Part shown: positions 2,686-28,733 of the stretch, one piece after another
Layout: the number at the start of each line of letters is the position of its first letter
How positions within the stretch are numbered: the first letter of the stretch is position 1
Source of the DNA: a virus
Reading direction: 5' to 3' (one strand)
Length of the DNA stretch: 55,952 nucleotides
IMG/VR virus record: IMGVR_UViG_3300020404_000088
Span: 1 to 55,952 of that record
Translations under genes and position numbers: made by a program
Notes under the pieces: generated by a model
What the model was told of the DNA's origin: nothing
The model's database searches: none
The model's input: the letters and a program-made list of their open reading frames with translations, nothing else

Positions 2686-3369
2686 TTACGCAGTTACAGT
2701 AATTGTACCAGCGTCAGTTCCAATAGAAGCAGCACTTGTAATCGTAGAAGCAGTGTTTGCCTCTTGGTTTAAGTGACCACCTTGAGCGCCTTCTAGTCTT
2801 ATGAACTCACCAATGTCTCCAGAGTTTGTTCCTTCTTCTAAAACAACGTGTTCAGTAGATTTCTCATTGATTGTACCACTATTTAAAGCGAGTGCGTTTG
2901 CACCTATTGAAAGTACATCATCTGCATTTGTAGCGGCATTAGCAGCTGCAATTGCAAGTTCGAATGTAAGTCTGTTTGTACCAGAACCACTAGCGTATAA
3001 TAGGTTGTGTGGACCACGACCTGAACCTGAACCAGCGTTACTGTTTGTGACAGCAAGATGTGGCGTACCACCATCTGTAGCAACTTCAACTTCCTCGTTG
3101 AAAGTAACTGTAGCACTTAAAGTACCACCATCAGACTTATCAAAACTATCTATATTCCAATCGATTGCTGTGATGTCTGCAAGATTCAGAGAAGTGCCCA
3201 AGTCACCAATTGCCACGATAACTTCTTCTTGTGTTCGATTAGCTCGACCACCAGTTCCAGTTACCTTTTTTACCCAACCTTTTTCGGTAGCGTAAACGTT
3301 TAATTTCTCAGCGGCTGTGAAGTGTTTTGGTTTATCTTCAACTGCGTCTGAATTTCCCCATAAAGGCAT
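2686..3369 (-). CDS. Virion protein with Ig-like domain
   Basis: A 227-residue protein beginning MPLWGNSDAVEDKPKHF. The MPLWG opening is one I recall from a virion protein of marine T4-like phages. Residues about 65-165 (SATVTFNEEVEVATDGGTPHL, SGTNRLTFELAIAAA, ALALNSGTI) match the pattern of bacterial Ig-like repeats found in large surface adhesins, with strands separated by Gly/Ser/Asn loops. Such domains usually decorate capsids or tails and bind weakly to surface sugars (family knowledge). A late-like box GATAAATA lies about 45 bases upstream. Location on head or tail cannot be told from sequence. Confidence 0.7.
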   Translation of the reverse strand: MPLWGNSDAVEDKPKHFTAAEKLNVYATEKGWVKKVTGTGGRANRTQEEVIVAIGDLGTSLNLADITAIDWNIDSFDKSDGGTLSATVTFNEEVEVATDGGTPHLAVTNSNAGSGSGRGPHNLLYASGSGTNRLTFELAIAAANAATNADDVLSIGANALALNSGTINEKSTEHVVLEEGTNSGDIGEFIRLEGAQGGHLNQEANTASTITSAASIGTDAGTITVTA

Positions 3370-3420
3370 ATTATCTCTCCTTATTAATAAGATTTATTTG
3401 TTATATAACGTTACTATTTA

Positions 3421-3942
3421 TCAAAAACCTAATCTCTTAAGCTCTGAAATTGTTTTTGAAGCACTAGTATGATGTATACCAATACCCCCAGCTGCCTTAA
3501 ATTGATCTACGTTTCTTTTGAAATCATCAATCAATAATGCAGGCCTTCTCTTCCCACCACTTTTCATTGCAAACTTTTGCTTATCTCTACGTCTTACCAA
3601 GTTAATATTACTTGTAGATATATTAACATTTTTTCTTAACCAAGTTCTTTTACCTGGTATGCAGTTAGGGTCTTCAGTTGTATAAGCAGATAATATATGT
3701 GGTTTATATTTGTCAATATAATTCCATAGTTGTTGTCCTCCAGGCATCCAAGGCATATTTGACCAGAAATTACGATACTTCTTGATCACTTCCCAATGTT
3801 CATCTGACTTATCTTGTGTGAAGATAACTCCTGTCGCCTTCTTCGCCTGCACTATAAAGTCACAAAGCACACCATCCATATCACAATAGATACGAGGTAG
3901 ATCGCCTTTTGCTTCTCTATAAAACTCTTTATAATCTCTCAC
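3421..3942 (-). CDS. HAD-family hydrolase, 5'-nucleotidase-like
   Basis: A 173-residue protein. Residues about 18-25 (IYCDMDGVL) are the HAD motif I with nucleophile and acid/base aspartates (DxDGVL). A C-terminal LLIDDFKRNV supplies the motif IV acidic pair. The layout resembles the small 5'(3')-deoxyribonucleotidase and phage HAD phosphatases that act on nucleotides or similar phosphate esters. It begins MRDYKEFYREAK, slightly resembling the targeting-type N-termini of neighbours. It sits 14 bases downstream of the coiled-coil virion-type gene. The phosphatase fold is confident; the substrate is not. Confidence 0.75.
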   Translation of the reverse strand: MRDYKEFYREAKGDLPRIYCDMDGVLCDFIVQAKKATGVIFTQDKSDEHWEVIKKYRNFWSNMPWMPGGQQLWNYIDKYKPHILSAYTTEDPNCIPGKRTWLRKNVNISTSNINLVRRRDKQKFAMKSGGKRRPALLIDDFKRNVDQFKAAGGIGIHHTSASKTISELKRLGF

Positions 3943-7144: not shown

Positions 7145-10014
7145 TATAGTTCCTTTTTCATACGTTCAACGGCCTTTTCTAGTTCTTCCTTGTACCGTTC
7201 TTTGTATCGTTTCTTATATTTATCTATTGTTTCTTCTTCATTTCTAAATTTTTCTATATCTGCCATCTTGATAGTTTCACTATATTTTCTGAAGTTTTGT
7301 ATAGGTTGACCTGGGGTCATACTCATTGTATGCCTAGCAGAATGATCTGTGCCTAATAAGTAATATTCATCTATTTTCATCTCTTTTTCAAGTTTATCTA
7401 TCAGACTTTCTTTCTGCATTTCTTTTGTCTTTTTCTTCATCTGTTCAATATATCTTCTATATACTGCCGCTTCTGAAGTTTTACCCATCTCTTTTGCTCG
7501 TTGTTCCATTGCAACAGCAGCTTGAATCTTGTGTGCATGAGTCTTACCAGAATTCTTAATCTTATTCACACTTGCTCTCGCAGTTTCAACATCTTTGAAA
7601 CCTAGACCTTTGATAGTGCCTTTTGGATTTTCATCTGTATATAGATCACTATGTTTATCTGAACCTGCAGGTTGACCTTTCTTTCTAGGTATTCTAGGTG
7701 CTTCGTCTAAAGGTTGTAGATCATATAACCATGCCTTCTTAATCAGACCGTCATTCTCATATGATACATAATTAGAACCTCGCCTAACAACCATACCTTG
7801 TGTGCCGTCTGTATGTTCTACCATATCACCCACGTTGAATATTTTTTCTTGATGATATTCTTCTCTTAAATCATTGTTCACAAAGTCAGTAAAATTACCT
7901 ACATAACTTTCTCTAATGTCCATACCTTTCTTGACAGCGGCAAATAATGCCTTTGTATCACTATCAGAAAGATTAACAACACCTCTTTTAAAATTTCTAT
8001 AATCATTATTCTTTGCCATCTCTCTCATTTTAGAGGCAGACATTCCTGTTACACCTTCAGCATCAGGATCTCTCTCGCCAGATGAAGCAACTTTGATTGA
8101 TTTGTAATTGTATTCTTTACCATTATACTTGTCAGCGAGTGATTGAAACTCTCTTATCCTATCACTACCAGCTACCATGATTATCTCACCATACATCTTG
8201 TCGTAGAATTTTAATATCTCCATAAATGTTCTTTGTGTGCCACCTGCTGCCATAATCTTATTTCTAGGAAACATTTTTCTCATAAACTTAACTTTGGTGT
8301 TTACATCTAATGGATTCTTTCTTTTGTCTTGTGAGGCGCTAGCATAGACAACGTGATTAGCGCTGTTCTTTCTAGCTTGATTTATCACTTCTCTCATAAG
8401 TTTATCATGCCCACTAGTAGGAGGGTTGAACCTACCAAAGGCAAATATTAGTTTCTTGCTATTATCTAACGCCTCTTTAACAGCCCTCGTTTTACTTTGG
8501 GCTAATTCTTTTCTGTAAGGTCCATGACCTTTATCTTTCCAGTTTTTATCTTGAATATTTTTAGCACCGACAGATTCTACATAACCACCTTTAAGTGAAT
8601 CTATCTCATCATCATCAACTTCACCATCTGCTAATATATTTTTTAGATATTTAAAGAAAGTTATATAGTGATATTTTTCTAACATCTTATATATTACATT
8701 TTTAGGTAATCTATTTTTGATACCATATGCTCTAATCTCGTCTGGTGTCATGTCTTTATCAAACGCCGCTCTTCTTTCAGCGTCAACTGTATCACCGATG
8801 TCAACAATATCTTGTATATCTTTTTCTATTTCTTCTAACTTATTCTTAATTCTTTTTTCTAAATCTTTAATATCGCCTGATTTTAATTCTTTTAATTCAT
8901 CATAGTCGATTATATCTCTTTTTAATTCGCCTTTAATTACGTCTATCTCTTGTACTTTTTTATCAAAATCTTTAATATATAAATTAACATCAAAGGTAAA
9001 ATCTTCTGGTCTTTTTACAAACTTATTATTCGTTATATCAAATACTGCGTCTGCTTTATTATTTTGATCATCATAAGTTTTTTCATCTGTAATTAAATAA
9101 TAATTAACAGGATGTTTTGTACCTGGTATTAACTTGCCTTGTATGTTGTCTGGATTTTTAGAAGATAAAAATTGTTTTGATAATCTTAATCTCTCGTCTT
9201 CTTGTTTTTCCTCTGGCACATCAAATAAAATATTAATATCTAAATCAGCATCATTTCTATATCTCTTTGTAAGTATAGAGCCAATCAAAGTTATCTTTAA
9301 AACAGGATATTCTTTTTCAAATTCTTCAACCTGTTTATCAATCATAGATAAAACACTAGACTTAATCTTTGGATTATCTGTATCTTCATCATCAAAAACA
9401 CCAGGTGCATAAGTTCTTCTAGGTATATCGATAATGGATTCTACAAATGTTTTAAATGTTTTCATTTCTTTTACATAGTTCCCTTTATTCATAAGGGCAT
9501 ACATTTTTTCACCTAATAAATTACCAGCATCATAATCTGAAACATAATGAAATCCTGCCAATACTCTTCCATAACCACACTCATTACCTGCCTCGATTAA
9601 GTTAGCCTCGTGTTCAGGAAATTTACCTGCAACATATCTCGCAACTATTCTTGATTGAACCGCATGGCCACTAGGGTATGATGGTGTCTTGTTTGTTTTA
9701 CTTGGTGATGTATCAATCGTCTTATCTATTTCGATAGGTCTCTTTCTATCAAACTTATCTTTAAAATAATTAATAGTATCTGTTGCTCCATAAATTATGT
9801 CTTTAAATTCATCTTTGTGAAACATCATTTTATTATCGTCACAATATTTTTTAATAGCATAGAAAGGAACTTCATCATGGTCTGCGATTGATTTCTCTTG
9901 CTCTGCCGTTCTATTAGATACAATTTTCTTCACCTCTTTTGCTTCACCTATATCATCTTTAGGTGGTGCAGGTATTGTTATATCTTTATACAACTTATCT
10001 TTAAAAAATTTCAT
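7144..10014 (-). CDS. Multi-enzyme fusion: PAP2 phosphatase, two nucleotidyltransferases, KOW-like
   Basis: A 956-residue protein with several recognisable parts. Residues about 85-165 carry PAP2 acid-phosphatase motifs: K...RKRP, PSYPSGH, and GRVLAGFHYVSD. Residues 236-330 resemble a pol-beta-type nucleotidyltransferase (GS at 245-246, DLD at 257-259). Residues 521-665 form an NMN-adenylyltransferase-like domain: GRFNPPTSGH (the HxGH site) and a C-terminal GMSASKMR. Residues 725-770 look like a KOW/SH3 barrel, followed by a basic module ending near 865. An internal MKTFKTFVES at 184-193 resembles a capsid-targeting start, suggesting fusion of once separate internal proteins. Substrates are unknown; nucleotide or NAD chemistry is plausible. 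Confidence 0.75.
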   Translation of the reverse strand: MKFFKDKLYKDITIPAPPKDDIGEAKEVKKIVSNRTAEQEKSIADHDEVPFYAIKKYCDDNKMMFHKDEFKDIIYGATDTINYFKDKFDRKRPIEIDKTIDTSPSKTNKTPSYPSGHAVQSRIVARYVAGKFPEHEANLIEAGNECGYGRVLAGFHYVSDYDAGNLLGEKMYALMNKGNYVKEMKTFKTFVESIIDIPRRTYAPGVFDDEDTDNPKIKSSVLSMIDKQVEEFEKEYPVLKITLIGSILTKRYRNDADLDINILFDVPEEKQEDERLRLSKQFLSSKNPDNIQGKLIPGTKHPVNYYLITDEKTYDDQNNKADAVFDITNNKFVKRPEDFTFDVNLYIKDFDKKVQEIDVIKGELKRDIIDYDELKELKSGDIKDLEKRIKNKLEEIEKDIQDIVDIGDTVDAERRAAFDKDMTPDEIRAYGIKNRLPKNVIYKMLEKYHYITFFKYLKNILADGEVDDDEIDSLKGGYVESVGAKNIQDKNWKDKGHGPYRKELAQSKTRAVKEALDNSKKLIFAFGRFNPPTSGHDKLMREVINQARKNSANHVVYASASQDKRKNPLDVNTKVKFMRKMFPRNKIMAAGGTQRTFMEILKFYDKMYGEIIMVAGSDRIREFQSLADKYNGKEYNYKSIKVASSGERDPDAEGVTGMSASKMREMAKNNDYRNFKRGVVNLSDSDTKALFAAVKKGMDIRESYVGNFTDFVNNDLREEYHQEKIFNVGDMVEHTDGTQGMVVRRGSNYVSYENDGLIKKAWLYDLQPLDEAPRIPRKKGQPAGSDKHSDLYTDENPKGTIKGLGFKDVETARASVNKIKNSGKTHAHKIQAAVAMEQRAKEMGKTSEAAVYRRYIEQMKKKTKEMQKESLIDKLEKEMKIDEYYLLGTDHSARHTMSMTPGQPIQNFRKYSETIKMADIEKFRNEEETIDKYKKRYKERYKEELEKAVERMKKEL

Positions 10015-27643: not shown

Positions 27644-28066
27644 TTATTTGATTTTGATTGTCTTCGGTTTCTTTTCCTCAGGTACAATCTTTTCAAGATC
27701 AATAACAAGCATACCGTCTTTTAATTCAGCACCTTTTACAACAACATCATCTGCCAATGTAAACGATCTAGTGAATTGTCTTTTTGATATACCTTTATGT
27801 ATTGGTTCTTTTCCCTTGTCTTCACTCGGTATAGATTTAATTGTCAATTGATTTTCAGCAGTAGATACATCAATATCTTTTTTGCCAAAACCAGCAAGTG
27901 CTATCTCAATGTTCCAATTGAAATTATCTATCTTATTAATATTGTAAGGGGGATAATTTACTGTCCTCGTATTGTCTAGGTGTAAATTAAAGTGATCGAA
28001 TATATTATCGAACCCTACTGAAAAGGGTCTTAGATCATTCCAGATCCGTAGTTCTCTATTAGTCAT
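27644..28066 (-). CDS. hsp20: Small heat-shock protein (Hsp20/IbpA family)
   Basis: A 140-residue alpha-crystallin-domain chaperone, which holds unfolding proteins in a refoldable state. The domain runs about 45-135: NWNIEIALAGFGKKDIDVST, then QLTIKSI, RSFTLADDVVVKGAELKDGM and LVIDLEKIVPEEKKP. An IKIK end corresponds to the IxI motif. A strong AAAGGAG lies before ATG. Its leader contains a late box (28167-28174) and some small stem-loops. Small heat-shock genes are common in marine T4-like phages and may help capsid assembly. Confidence 0.93.
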   Translation of the reverse strand: MTNRELRIWNDLRPFSVGFDNIFDHFNLHLDNTRTVNYPPYNINKIDNFNWNIEIALAGFGKKDIDVSTAENQLTIKSIPSEDKGKEPIHKGISKRQFTRSFTLADDVVVKGAELKDGMLVIDLEKIVPEEKKPKTIKIK

Positions 28067-28166
28067 ATTTGCTCCTTTGTAAGCGAGTTAAATTATGATA
28101 CCTCTTATGAGCGTATCGTTATTATATATAAGAATTAATTTTTAAATTACAAGTCTTATATAAAAT

Positions 28167-28174
28167 TATTTATA
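28167..28174 (-). promoter_or_regulatory. Late promoter for hsp20
   Basis: Exact TATAAATA on the minus strand, about 100 bases before the hsp20 ATG. It immediately follows the last helix strand of the structured RNA at 28175-28374. Confidence 0.65.
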
Positions 28175-28374
28175 ATCGGTAGAGGTAGGTCTCACCCTCT
28201 TTTACCCTAAAATGTCTTACCATTTTTGTCACATTTAAGTGCTACAAAGACCAATGGACCGATAAGGTAGTTTCTTTTATCACGGAGTGAAACTACCAAA
28301 CCTCACCGAATTAAGTATCTTTGCGGAAGATACTCTACCTCTTAATGTAAGGACTTACGATCAGCCTTACATTA
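28175..28374 (-). ncRNA. Candidate structured RNA with pseudoknot
   Basis: No frame of note is open here. On the minus strand: hairpin P0, TAATGTAAGG/CCTTACATTA (28374-28343, 10 bp); long helix A, AGAGGTAG (28342-28335) with CTACCTCT (28188-28181); hairpin P2, AGTATCTT/AAGATACT (28334-28314, 8 bp, 5-base loop), abutting A; hairpin P3, GGTAGTTTC/GAAACTACC (28297-28266, 9 bp); helix B, ATCGGT (28263-28258) with ACCGAT (28180-28175). A and B interleave in A-B-A'-B' order, a pseudoknot, with A' and B' adjacent. A late box lies just upstream. It matches none of tmRNA, RNase P RNA or 6S RNA. It is the candidate content of the 324-base gap. Confidence 0.65.
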
Positions 28375-28375
28375 C

Positions 28376-28383
28376 TATTTATA
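28376..28383 (-). promoter_or_regulatory. Late promoter for the structured RNA
   Basis: Exact TATAAATA on the minus strand, one base upstream of hairpin P0, giving a predicted start near 28370. No coding gene follows for 300 bases, so the RNA is the immediate product. Confidence 0.65.
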
Positions 28384-28390
28384 CGGCCAA

Positions 28391-28657
28391 TTACGCTGAA
28401 TAAGCGTATTTAAATGGACCATATAATTTTCTAATACCAGCAGCGATAATAGATTTAGTAGGAGTACCCAATCTGTATGAAGTACCTTTAGTTGATTCAT
28501 TGATATAAATCATGTGTCCCTCTGATCTTAATTGATCTACCATTGCTCTTGGTGATGTTAAATCAAATTTGCTTCTTAGTGCTTTCCAAGATACTGGTGC
28601 ACCTTTTGAAAGTAAATTTAATACTTTAGTTTTTTTATTTAATGTTTTTCTAGCCAT
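28391..28657 (-). CDS. Winged-helix DNA-binding-like protein
   Basis: An 88-residue basic protein. I start at 28657 (MARKTLNKKTKVLNLLSKGA) because AAGGAA precedes it; the frame could extend 24 residues upstream. The segment VSWKALRSKFDLTSPRAMVD followed by QLRSEGHMIYIN is the helix-turn-helix and wing of a winged-helix domain. The ending LYGPFKYAYSA is less conserved. It lies between rpsU and the structured RNA, so it might regulate either. I recall such small HTH proteins in marine T4-like phages. The DNA target is unknown. Confidence 0.75.
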   Translation of the reverse strand: MARKTLNKKTKVLNLLSKGAPVSWKALRSKFDLTSPRAMVDQLRSEGHMIYINESTKGTSYRLGTPTKSIIAAGIRKLYGPFKYAYSA

Positions 28658-28733
28658 TATATTTTTCCTTTTTTTCTCTTGTTGTTTCAAATTAAACATA
28701 CGAGATATTAACAACATAAAATATCTCATAATT

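Follow-up and report, generated by a model that had tools for sequence, protein, structure and literature searches.

The window analysed here is the whole 55,952-nucleotide stretch of IMG/VR virus record IMGVR_UViG_3300020404_000088. We focused on the gap between a hypothetical 112-aa ORF and hsp20, where the flanking genes all lie on the minus strand (Table 1). The hsp20 product shares 50.8% identity with its homologue in pelagiphage HTVC008M, which is annotated as a heat shock protein, and HTVC008M has the same order, S21 - hypothetical - hsp20, with the sliding clamp and clamp loader further on. From this common gene order we take the window to be a pelagimyophage fragment. Positions 28175-28374 fold at -62.5 kcal/mol compared with -43.6 in shuffles (z -4.6, beating 200 of 200 dinucleotide shuffles), and the gap as a whole gives a z of -4.5 against dinucleotide shuffles. 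A sequence-only reading had described a single structured RNA here that was no plain terminator, tmRNA, RNase P or 6S RNA. Its exclusions were borne out: no Rfam 15 family lies over the gap at the gathering cut-off, and neither ARAGORN nor Rfam places a tRNA or tmRNA over it or anything of the tmRNA kind in the window. A blastn search of the whole gap against phage records returned unrelated chance matches only. The RNA is also structured and on the minus strand, as had been proposed; as judged by comparison with relatives, however, the gap is not a single fold but two independent structured RNA modules, E1 and E2, and the paired changes described below show both to be conserved RNA structures.

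E1 recurs upstream of hsp20 across this pelagimyophage group, HTVC008M included. All of the complementary stretches noticed earlier occur on the minus strand at their stated coordinates; three of them (P0, P2 and P3) are confirmed by comparison and correspond to its hairpins, and the TATAAATA boxes reported beside P0 and B' are both in place. The window holds 12 such boxes where chance predicts 11.8, but all 12 on the minus strand; the reading of the box as a late promoter is therefore plausible. In 26 sequences, 97.8% of the cells of hairpin 1 are paired and 5 of its 11 pairs are changed on both sides, and its motif appears in 57 distinct versions across the collected loci, HTVC008M among them. 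In hairpin 2, both partners have changed in two pairs (G-C/A-U and U-A/A-U), and hairpin 3 is present in every locus examined as a stem of 6-11 bp with changing sequence. At least five T occur in the eight bases directly 3' of hairpin 3 in 19 of 33 E2-less loci. A GC stem followed by a U tract, as in a terminator, is found at hairpin 3 in many E2-less loci and not in the window, where an intrinsic-terminator scan detected none on the minus strand. In HTVC008M (L242 2801-2875), two hairpins in succession carry the same CUCGUAAA loop, a doubling that suggests the E1 hairpin loop to be a repeated binding motif.

Table 1. Features in and around the gap, in window coordinates.
Feature	Position	Strand	Basis and remarks
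hsp20	27644-28066	-	ORF; HTVC008M homologue; neighbour downstream of the RNA, outside it
Second TATAAATA box	28167-28174	-	sequence; between E2 and hsp20
E2, pseudoknotted RNA, about 90 nt	28175-28264	-	model R1 match 28176-28264, 99.8 bits; covariation
E2 P1 3' strand, ACCGAU (earlier B')	28175-28180	-	pairs with 28258-28263
E2 P4 hairpin, loop GUGAGACCUA	28181-28200	-	covariation
E2 pseudoknot 3' strand, AGACC	28188-28192	-	within P4 loop; pairs with 28248-28252
E2 P3 hairpin, loop GUAAGA	28210-28225	-	covariation
E2 P2 hairpin, variable length	28230-28241	-	covariation
E2 pseudoknot 5' strand, GGUCU	28248-28252	-	pairs with 28188-28192
E2 P1 5' strand, AUCGGU (earlier B)	28258-28263	-	pairs with 28175-28180
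E1	28266-28383	-	late-type box, two conserved hairpins, terminator-like hairpin
E1 hairpin 3, terminator-like (earlier P3, 28289-28297/28266-28274)	28266-28297	-	stem kept, sequence varies
E1 hairpin 2, AGUAUCU..UCCGCAA..AGAUACU (earlier P2, 28327-28334/28314-28321)	28314-28334	-	double changes
Unpaired conserved stretch of E1, AGAGGUAG (earlier helix A, 5' strand)	28335-28342	-	same letters in 33/33 E2-containing loci
E1 hairpin 1, stem-GG[C/U]NNNUCRUAA[G/A]NCC-stem (earlier P0, 28365-28374/28343-28352)	28343-28374	-	pairing, double changes
Putative T4-like late promoter, TATAAATA box preceding E1	28376-28383	-	sequence; invariant in E1 alignment
112-aa ORF (hypothetical)	28391-28729	-	ORF
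Small gene, homologous to phage S21	28734-28946	-	homology; precedes 112-aa ORF

Fold and covariation of E2

The fold of E2 consists of a closing helix P1, the hairpins P2-P4 and a pseudoknot in which GGYCU pairs with the P4 loop (AGRCC). Our large alignment comprises 67 model matches with 63 distinct sequences. In this alignment, which was fitted to a nested-helix model without the pseudoknot and whose nested-helix counts lean toward structure, 97.5% of pair cells are paired and 16 of 24 pairs are changed on both sides, a number equalled by 1 of 500 shuffles; the helices reach 95.9% of cells paired with 4 of 5 pairs doubly changed (P1), 97.2% with 4 of 4 (P2), 97.1% with 4 of 5 (P3) and 97.1% with 3 of 5 (P4, including A-U/U-A/C-G/G-C). 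Doubly changed cells number 304 compared with 87.6 in shuffles, and the covariation score is 0.561 compared with 0.166, with 0 of 500 shuffles as high for either. A MAFFT alignment of 25 type-a sequences, which is free of structure-fitting bias, gave P1, P2, P3, P4 and the GGYCU x AGRCC pairing with 97.5% of cells paired and 14 pairs with double changes; every shuffle stayed below this on all measures, and slid controls fell far short of it. Unconstrained RNAalifold recovers P1, P2, P3 and the GGYCU pairing. The pseudoknot is formed in all 63 sequences (100%), and its sole varying pair is U-A in 47 and C-G in 16. The other four of its five pairs never vary, so that its support consists of one covarying pair together with invariance and topology.

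Outside the helices, 27 of 38 unpaired positions of E2 are conserved at 95% or more. In P3, pair 81-98 is G-U in 48 of the 63 rows, and in P2, pair 27-72 is U-G in 31; since such frequent G-U pairs would be A-C mismatches on the opposite strand, the minus strand is the RNA strand. The size of E2 ranges from about 80 to 130 nt across relatives and varies base by base, which argues against coding. A minority of sequences, including that of Mosig, belong to a type b, in which a hairpin takes the place of P2-P3 and its loop pairs with the P3' position. All four loop pairs are formed in 13 of 13 parsed sequences, in four sequence versions, and constitute a second pseudoknot.

The sequence-only reading had placed its pseudoknot elsewhere, at a crossing of helix B with a helix A (28335-28342/28181-28188), and had set in advance that a lack of compensating changes in relatives would count against these helices. 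Helix B shows them abundantly and is the closing helix P1 of E2, whereas we found none for helix A. The eight bases of helix A are perfectly complementary in the window. Across the 33 loci that carry E2, however, its E1 strand AGAGGTAG never changes, and its E2 strand has an uncompensated change in 28 (T to A in 12, T to C in 16). Moreover, GAGGTAG of E1 is present in all 25 E2-less loci tested, and the E2 bases of helix A find local partners in P4, whose exchange of GAGG/CCTC for GTGG/CCAC compensates the T to A change. We therefore reject helix A and regard the A x B crossing as a coincidence of two modules; that the gap forms one RNA with this pseudoknot has hardly any probability left. The RNA is pseudoknotted, as had been proposed, but the crossing backed by covariation lies inside E2. 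A pseudoknot inferred from a single sequence can thus be half right, and comparison reveals the true partners.

Gain, loss and distribution of E2

Among hsp20 relatives in IMG/VR we collected 80 loci, most of them with a related gap. E1 is common to these up to about RNA position 127, after which the next 90-130 nt, corresponding to E2, are present or absent as a block; beyond it come the promoter region and leader of hsp20. In close relatives, P1 marks the edges of the block: the E2-less L020 and L021 read hairpin 3 - TTATAAATA, with the TATAAATA box immediately 3' of hairpin 3, and L011 reads hairpin 3 - TTAT - E2 - TTATAAATA. Only an apparent remnant, P1 plus P2, is found in L075. On an hsp20 tree of 62 sequences, the presence of E2 changes 11 times, at least 6 of them forced by well-supported branches; presence was scored by sequence pattern, and the count is approximate. 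These comparisons show that E2 comes and goes as a whole. In 16 of 20 E2-bearing loci, P1 is followed by a U tract; the window has no clear one. In L016 an ORF of about 600 nt (2886-3520) occupies the place of E2, with E1 hairpin 3 on one side and the promoter region of hsp20 on the other, which implies that the site takes up inserts.

The hsp20 leader of L082 (8773-8834) resembles a ROSE thermosensor at 17.8 bits, far under the cut-off of 43, with a hairpin GATACGCTCAT..AGAGGTATC followed by a TCGCTT/TTGCTT stretch opposite the AAGGAG ribosome binding site. The corresponding leader of the window (about 28067-28120, minus strand) gives no ROSE match. Members of a second hsp20 clade have a third conserved element 3' of E2, GCATTTGCGCYTRGTTT .. 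AAACTWAAGCTGCG (L082 about 8640-8740, L121, L097, L243 1690-1760), which is apparently a further structured RNA.

A pattern for the E2 core matched 114 stretches in IMG/VR, and the genuine ones nearly all adjoin hsp20 in pelagimyophage-like contigs. A few GC-rich matches are due to chance, and L114, L120, L147 and L156 were discarded as chance matches in coding DNA. A wider pseudoknot pattern returned the same 96 stretches and added nothing in IMG/VR. Relaxing the pattern added a second branch of E2 (L256-L273 except L266; 62-83 bits with the model), found in phages without hsp20 nearby and in at least four other gene contexts. In this branch P1 lies within a few bases of the upstream stop codon, often before a convergent gene. 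In L184 and L258, E2 is located 24-28 nt upstream of a start codon, just before the ribosome binding site. E2 also occurs in the isolate phages Mosig (58 bits), Kolga (63 bits) and the latter's sister Aegir, all with Pelagibacter hosts, where it is unannotated as RNA; a blastn search of phage records with E2 alone returned these three. Kolga is a siphovirus whose gene content does not cluster with other pelagiphages (PMC8163748). All E2-bearing phages with known hosts infect SAR11. A model search gave no credible E2 match in HTVC008M, Melnitz, P-SSM4 or S-SSM5, and exact patterns, which divergent or type-b copies could escape, found no E2 in either of two scans covering 84,980 bacterial and archaeal genomes. 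By its covarying fold and this spread, E2 is shown to be an RNA family of its own in unrelated phages.

We also examined the neighbours of E2. S21 does not hold as a constant partner: it adjoins E2 in pelagimyophages and is near it in Kolga, but was not found in most of the second-branch contig stretches examined. In L184, E2 lies directly 3' of a permuted tmRNA, as a separate element. The Flavobacterium-1 sRNA (RF02976) scores over its cut-off beside E2 in four contigs (L270, L256, L261 and L271; 88-98 bits) and under it in L265 and L264 (38-40 bits). It lies within about 20 nt of E2, downstream (for example at 2303-2418 of L270, with E2 at 2429-2517) or, in L264, upstream. LAGLIDADG-like homing endonuclease genes, judged by eye, occur within about 1.1 kb downstream of E2 in L264 and L272.

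Comparison with known RNA families

With E values up to 10, the window and one E2 per branch gave chance-level Rfam matches only, and neither E1 nor E2 is described in the literature that our search covered, with subscription papers and preprints mostly outside it. We file E2 as a new family among the structured phage RNAs. HDV-like ribozymes are small and pseudoknotted, like E2, and have been reported in phages; they form a nested double pseudoknot with the helix order P1-P2-P3-P1'-P4-P2'. The covariation-supported order of E2, PK-[P2]-[P3]-P4-PK'-P4' closed by P1, is different, and we do not assign E2 to this class. GOLLD, ROOL and other ornate RNAs are linked to phages and are several hundred bases long. 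They are structured bacterial or phage-associated RNAs without an established function (PMC12286853) and resemble E2 in both respects, whereas E2 is far shorter (about 80-130 nt), has a different architecture and gives no cmscan match to them.

In the same phage group, a permuted tmRNA and a glutamine riboswitch were reported for Melnitz and Mosig (Buchholz et al., 2022, PMC9004378). Unlike the permuted tmRNA, E2 lacks both a tag ORF and an acceptor stem, and it has no Rfam match to tmRNA or glutamine riboswitch; Melnitz has the tmRNA but no E2 match. At the gathering cut-off, the glutamine riboswitch (glnA RNA) matches neither L184 nor L243, the E2 stretch of Mosig, and at E up to 10 it has no match for the window or for the E2 of L184. 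The Flavobacterium-1 RNA is a structured sRNA gene in phage genomes, as E2 would be, but its sequence and its fold are different. It stands as a separate neighbour: RF02976 (cut-off 58.9 bits) matches beside E2 and not on it, and E2 occurs without it too. No RF02976 match lies in the window, nor in any of the records of HTVC008M, Mosig and Kolga.

Possible roles of E2

We propose, with about even confidence, that the gap encodes a two-module phage noncoding RNA in which E2 is a free-standing RNA. E1 would start at the late-type box and end in the terminator-like hairpin, and E2 would be an optional, self-contained module closed by P1, with P2 and P3 as side hairpins and with a compact core, pseudoknotted by the pairing of the P4 loop with GGYCU. 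Rather than serving as a switch for one neighbouring gene, E2 would probably come from late transcription at the E1 box in this locus and from other transcripts in other places, and may present its conserved unpaired core to a host or phage protein or ribonucleoprotein. We favour a free-standing RNA because the 27 of 38 conserved unpaired positions exceed the need of a protective hairpin, because E2 adjoins other RNA genes (the tmRNA in L184, RF02976 in either order), and because many pelagimyophage loci have a box before E1-E2 and a U tract after it. Against this reading, the window has no clear U tract after E2, and late boxes are no commoner than chance. The neighbours S21, permuted tmRNA and Flavobacterium-1 sRNA hint weakly at translation, weakly because most neighbours of E2 are hypothetical genes.

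The second branch points partly in another direction. With P1 right behind the stop codon, there is no room for an adjacent promoter of its own. This favours co-transcription in that branch and would suit a cis-acting element, at mRNA 3' ends or between cistrons, that protects, processes or terminates its own transcript. The frequent position ahead of a convergent gene and the U tract after P1 in many hsp20 loci agree with such an element. We consider it not very likely, though deserving real weight: 27 fixed unpaired positions are more than a hairpin would need for protection or termination, several loci including the window have no U tract, and in L184 and L258 E2 stands before a start codon. 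A compact pseudoknotted fold with a highly conserved core and an exchangeable periphery (type a, type b), promiscuous contexts and absence by pattern from bacterial genomes would also suit a self-cleaving ribozyme of a new class, with phage transcripts cut between modules or between genes. This is distinctly unlikely, given that no Rfam ribozyme family matched, that the helix order is not HDV-like and that the sequence names no cleavage site.

The position directly before the ribosome binding site in L184 and L258, together with a junction and pseudoknot typical of aptamers, might instead indicate a riboswitch or protein-responsive leader of the downstream gene, and a leader controlling hsp20 had been among the earlier suggestions for this locus. 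Such a role is very unlikely, because the contexts of E2 are too varied: downstream genes differ between phages and are convergent in several, and E2 occurs both with and without hsp20 nearby. In addition, E2 lies upstream of the hsp20-side late box, which separates it from hsp20, and many relatives keep hsp20 and its leader without E2. The bolder idea that E2 represents a novel class of RNA, catalytic or directed at the ribosome, that several unrelated SAR11-phage lineages use in infection, is a speculation that we regard as fairly unlikely.

Overall, E2 is a strongly covarying small RNA family that occurs in myophage and siphophage isolates, has no pattern match in sequenced bacterial genomes and is not in Rfam. 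This combination of covariation, spread and absence from Rfam points to an RNA function in infection that has yet to be described. E2 is present in three isolates (Mosig, Kolga and Aegir), which makes its expression, possible self-cleavage and binding partners directly testable. From the sequence comparisons presented here, SAR11 phages appear to use a dedicated RNA, E2, carried at many different places in their genomes.
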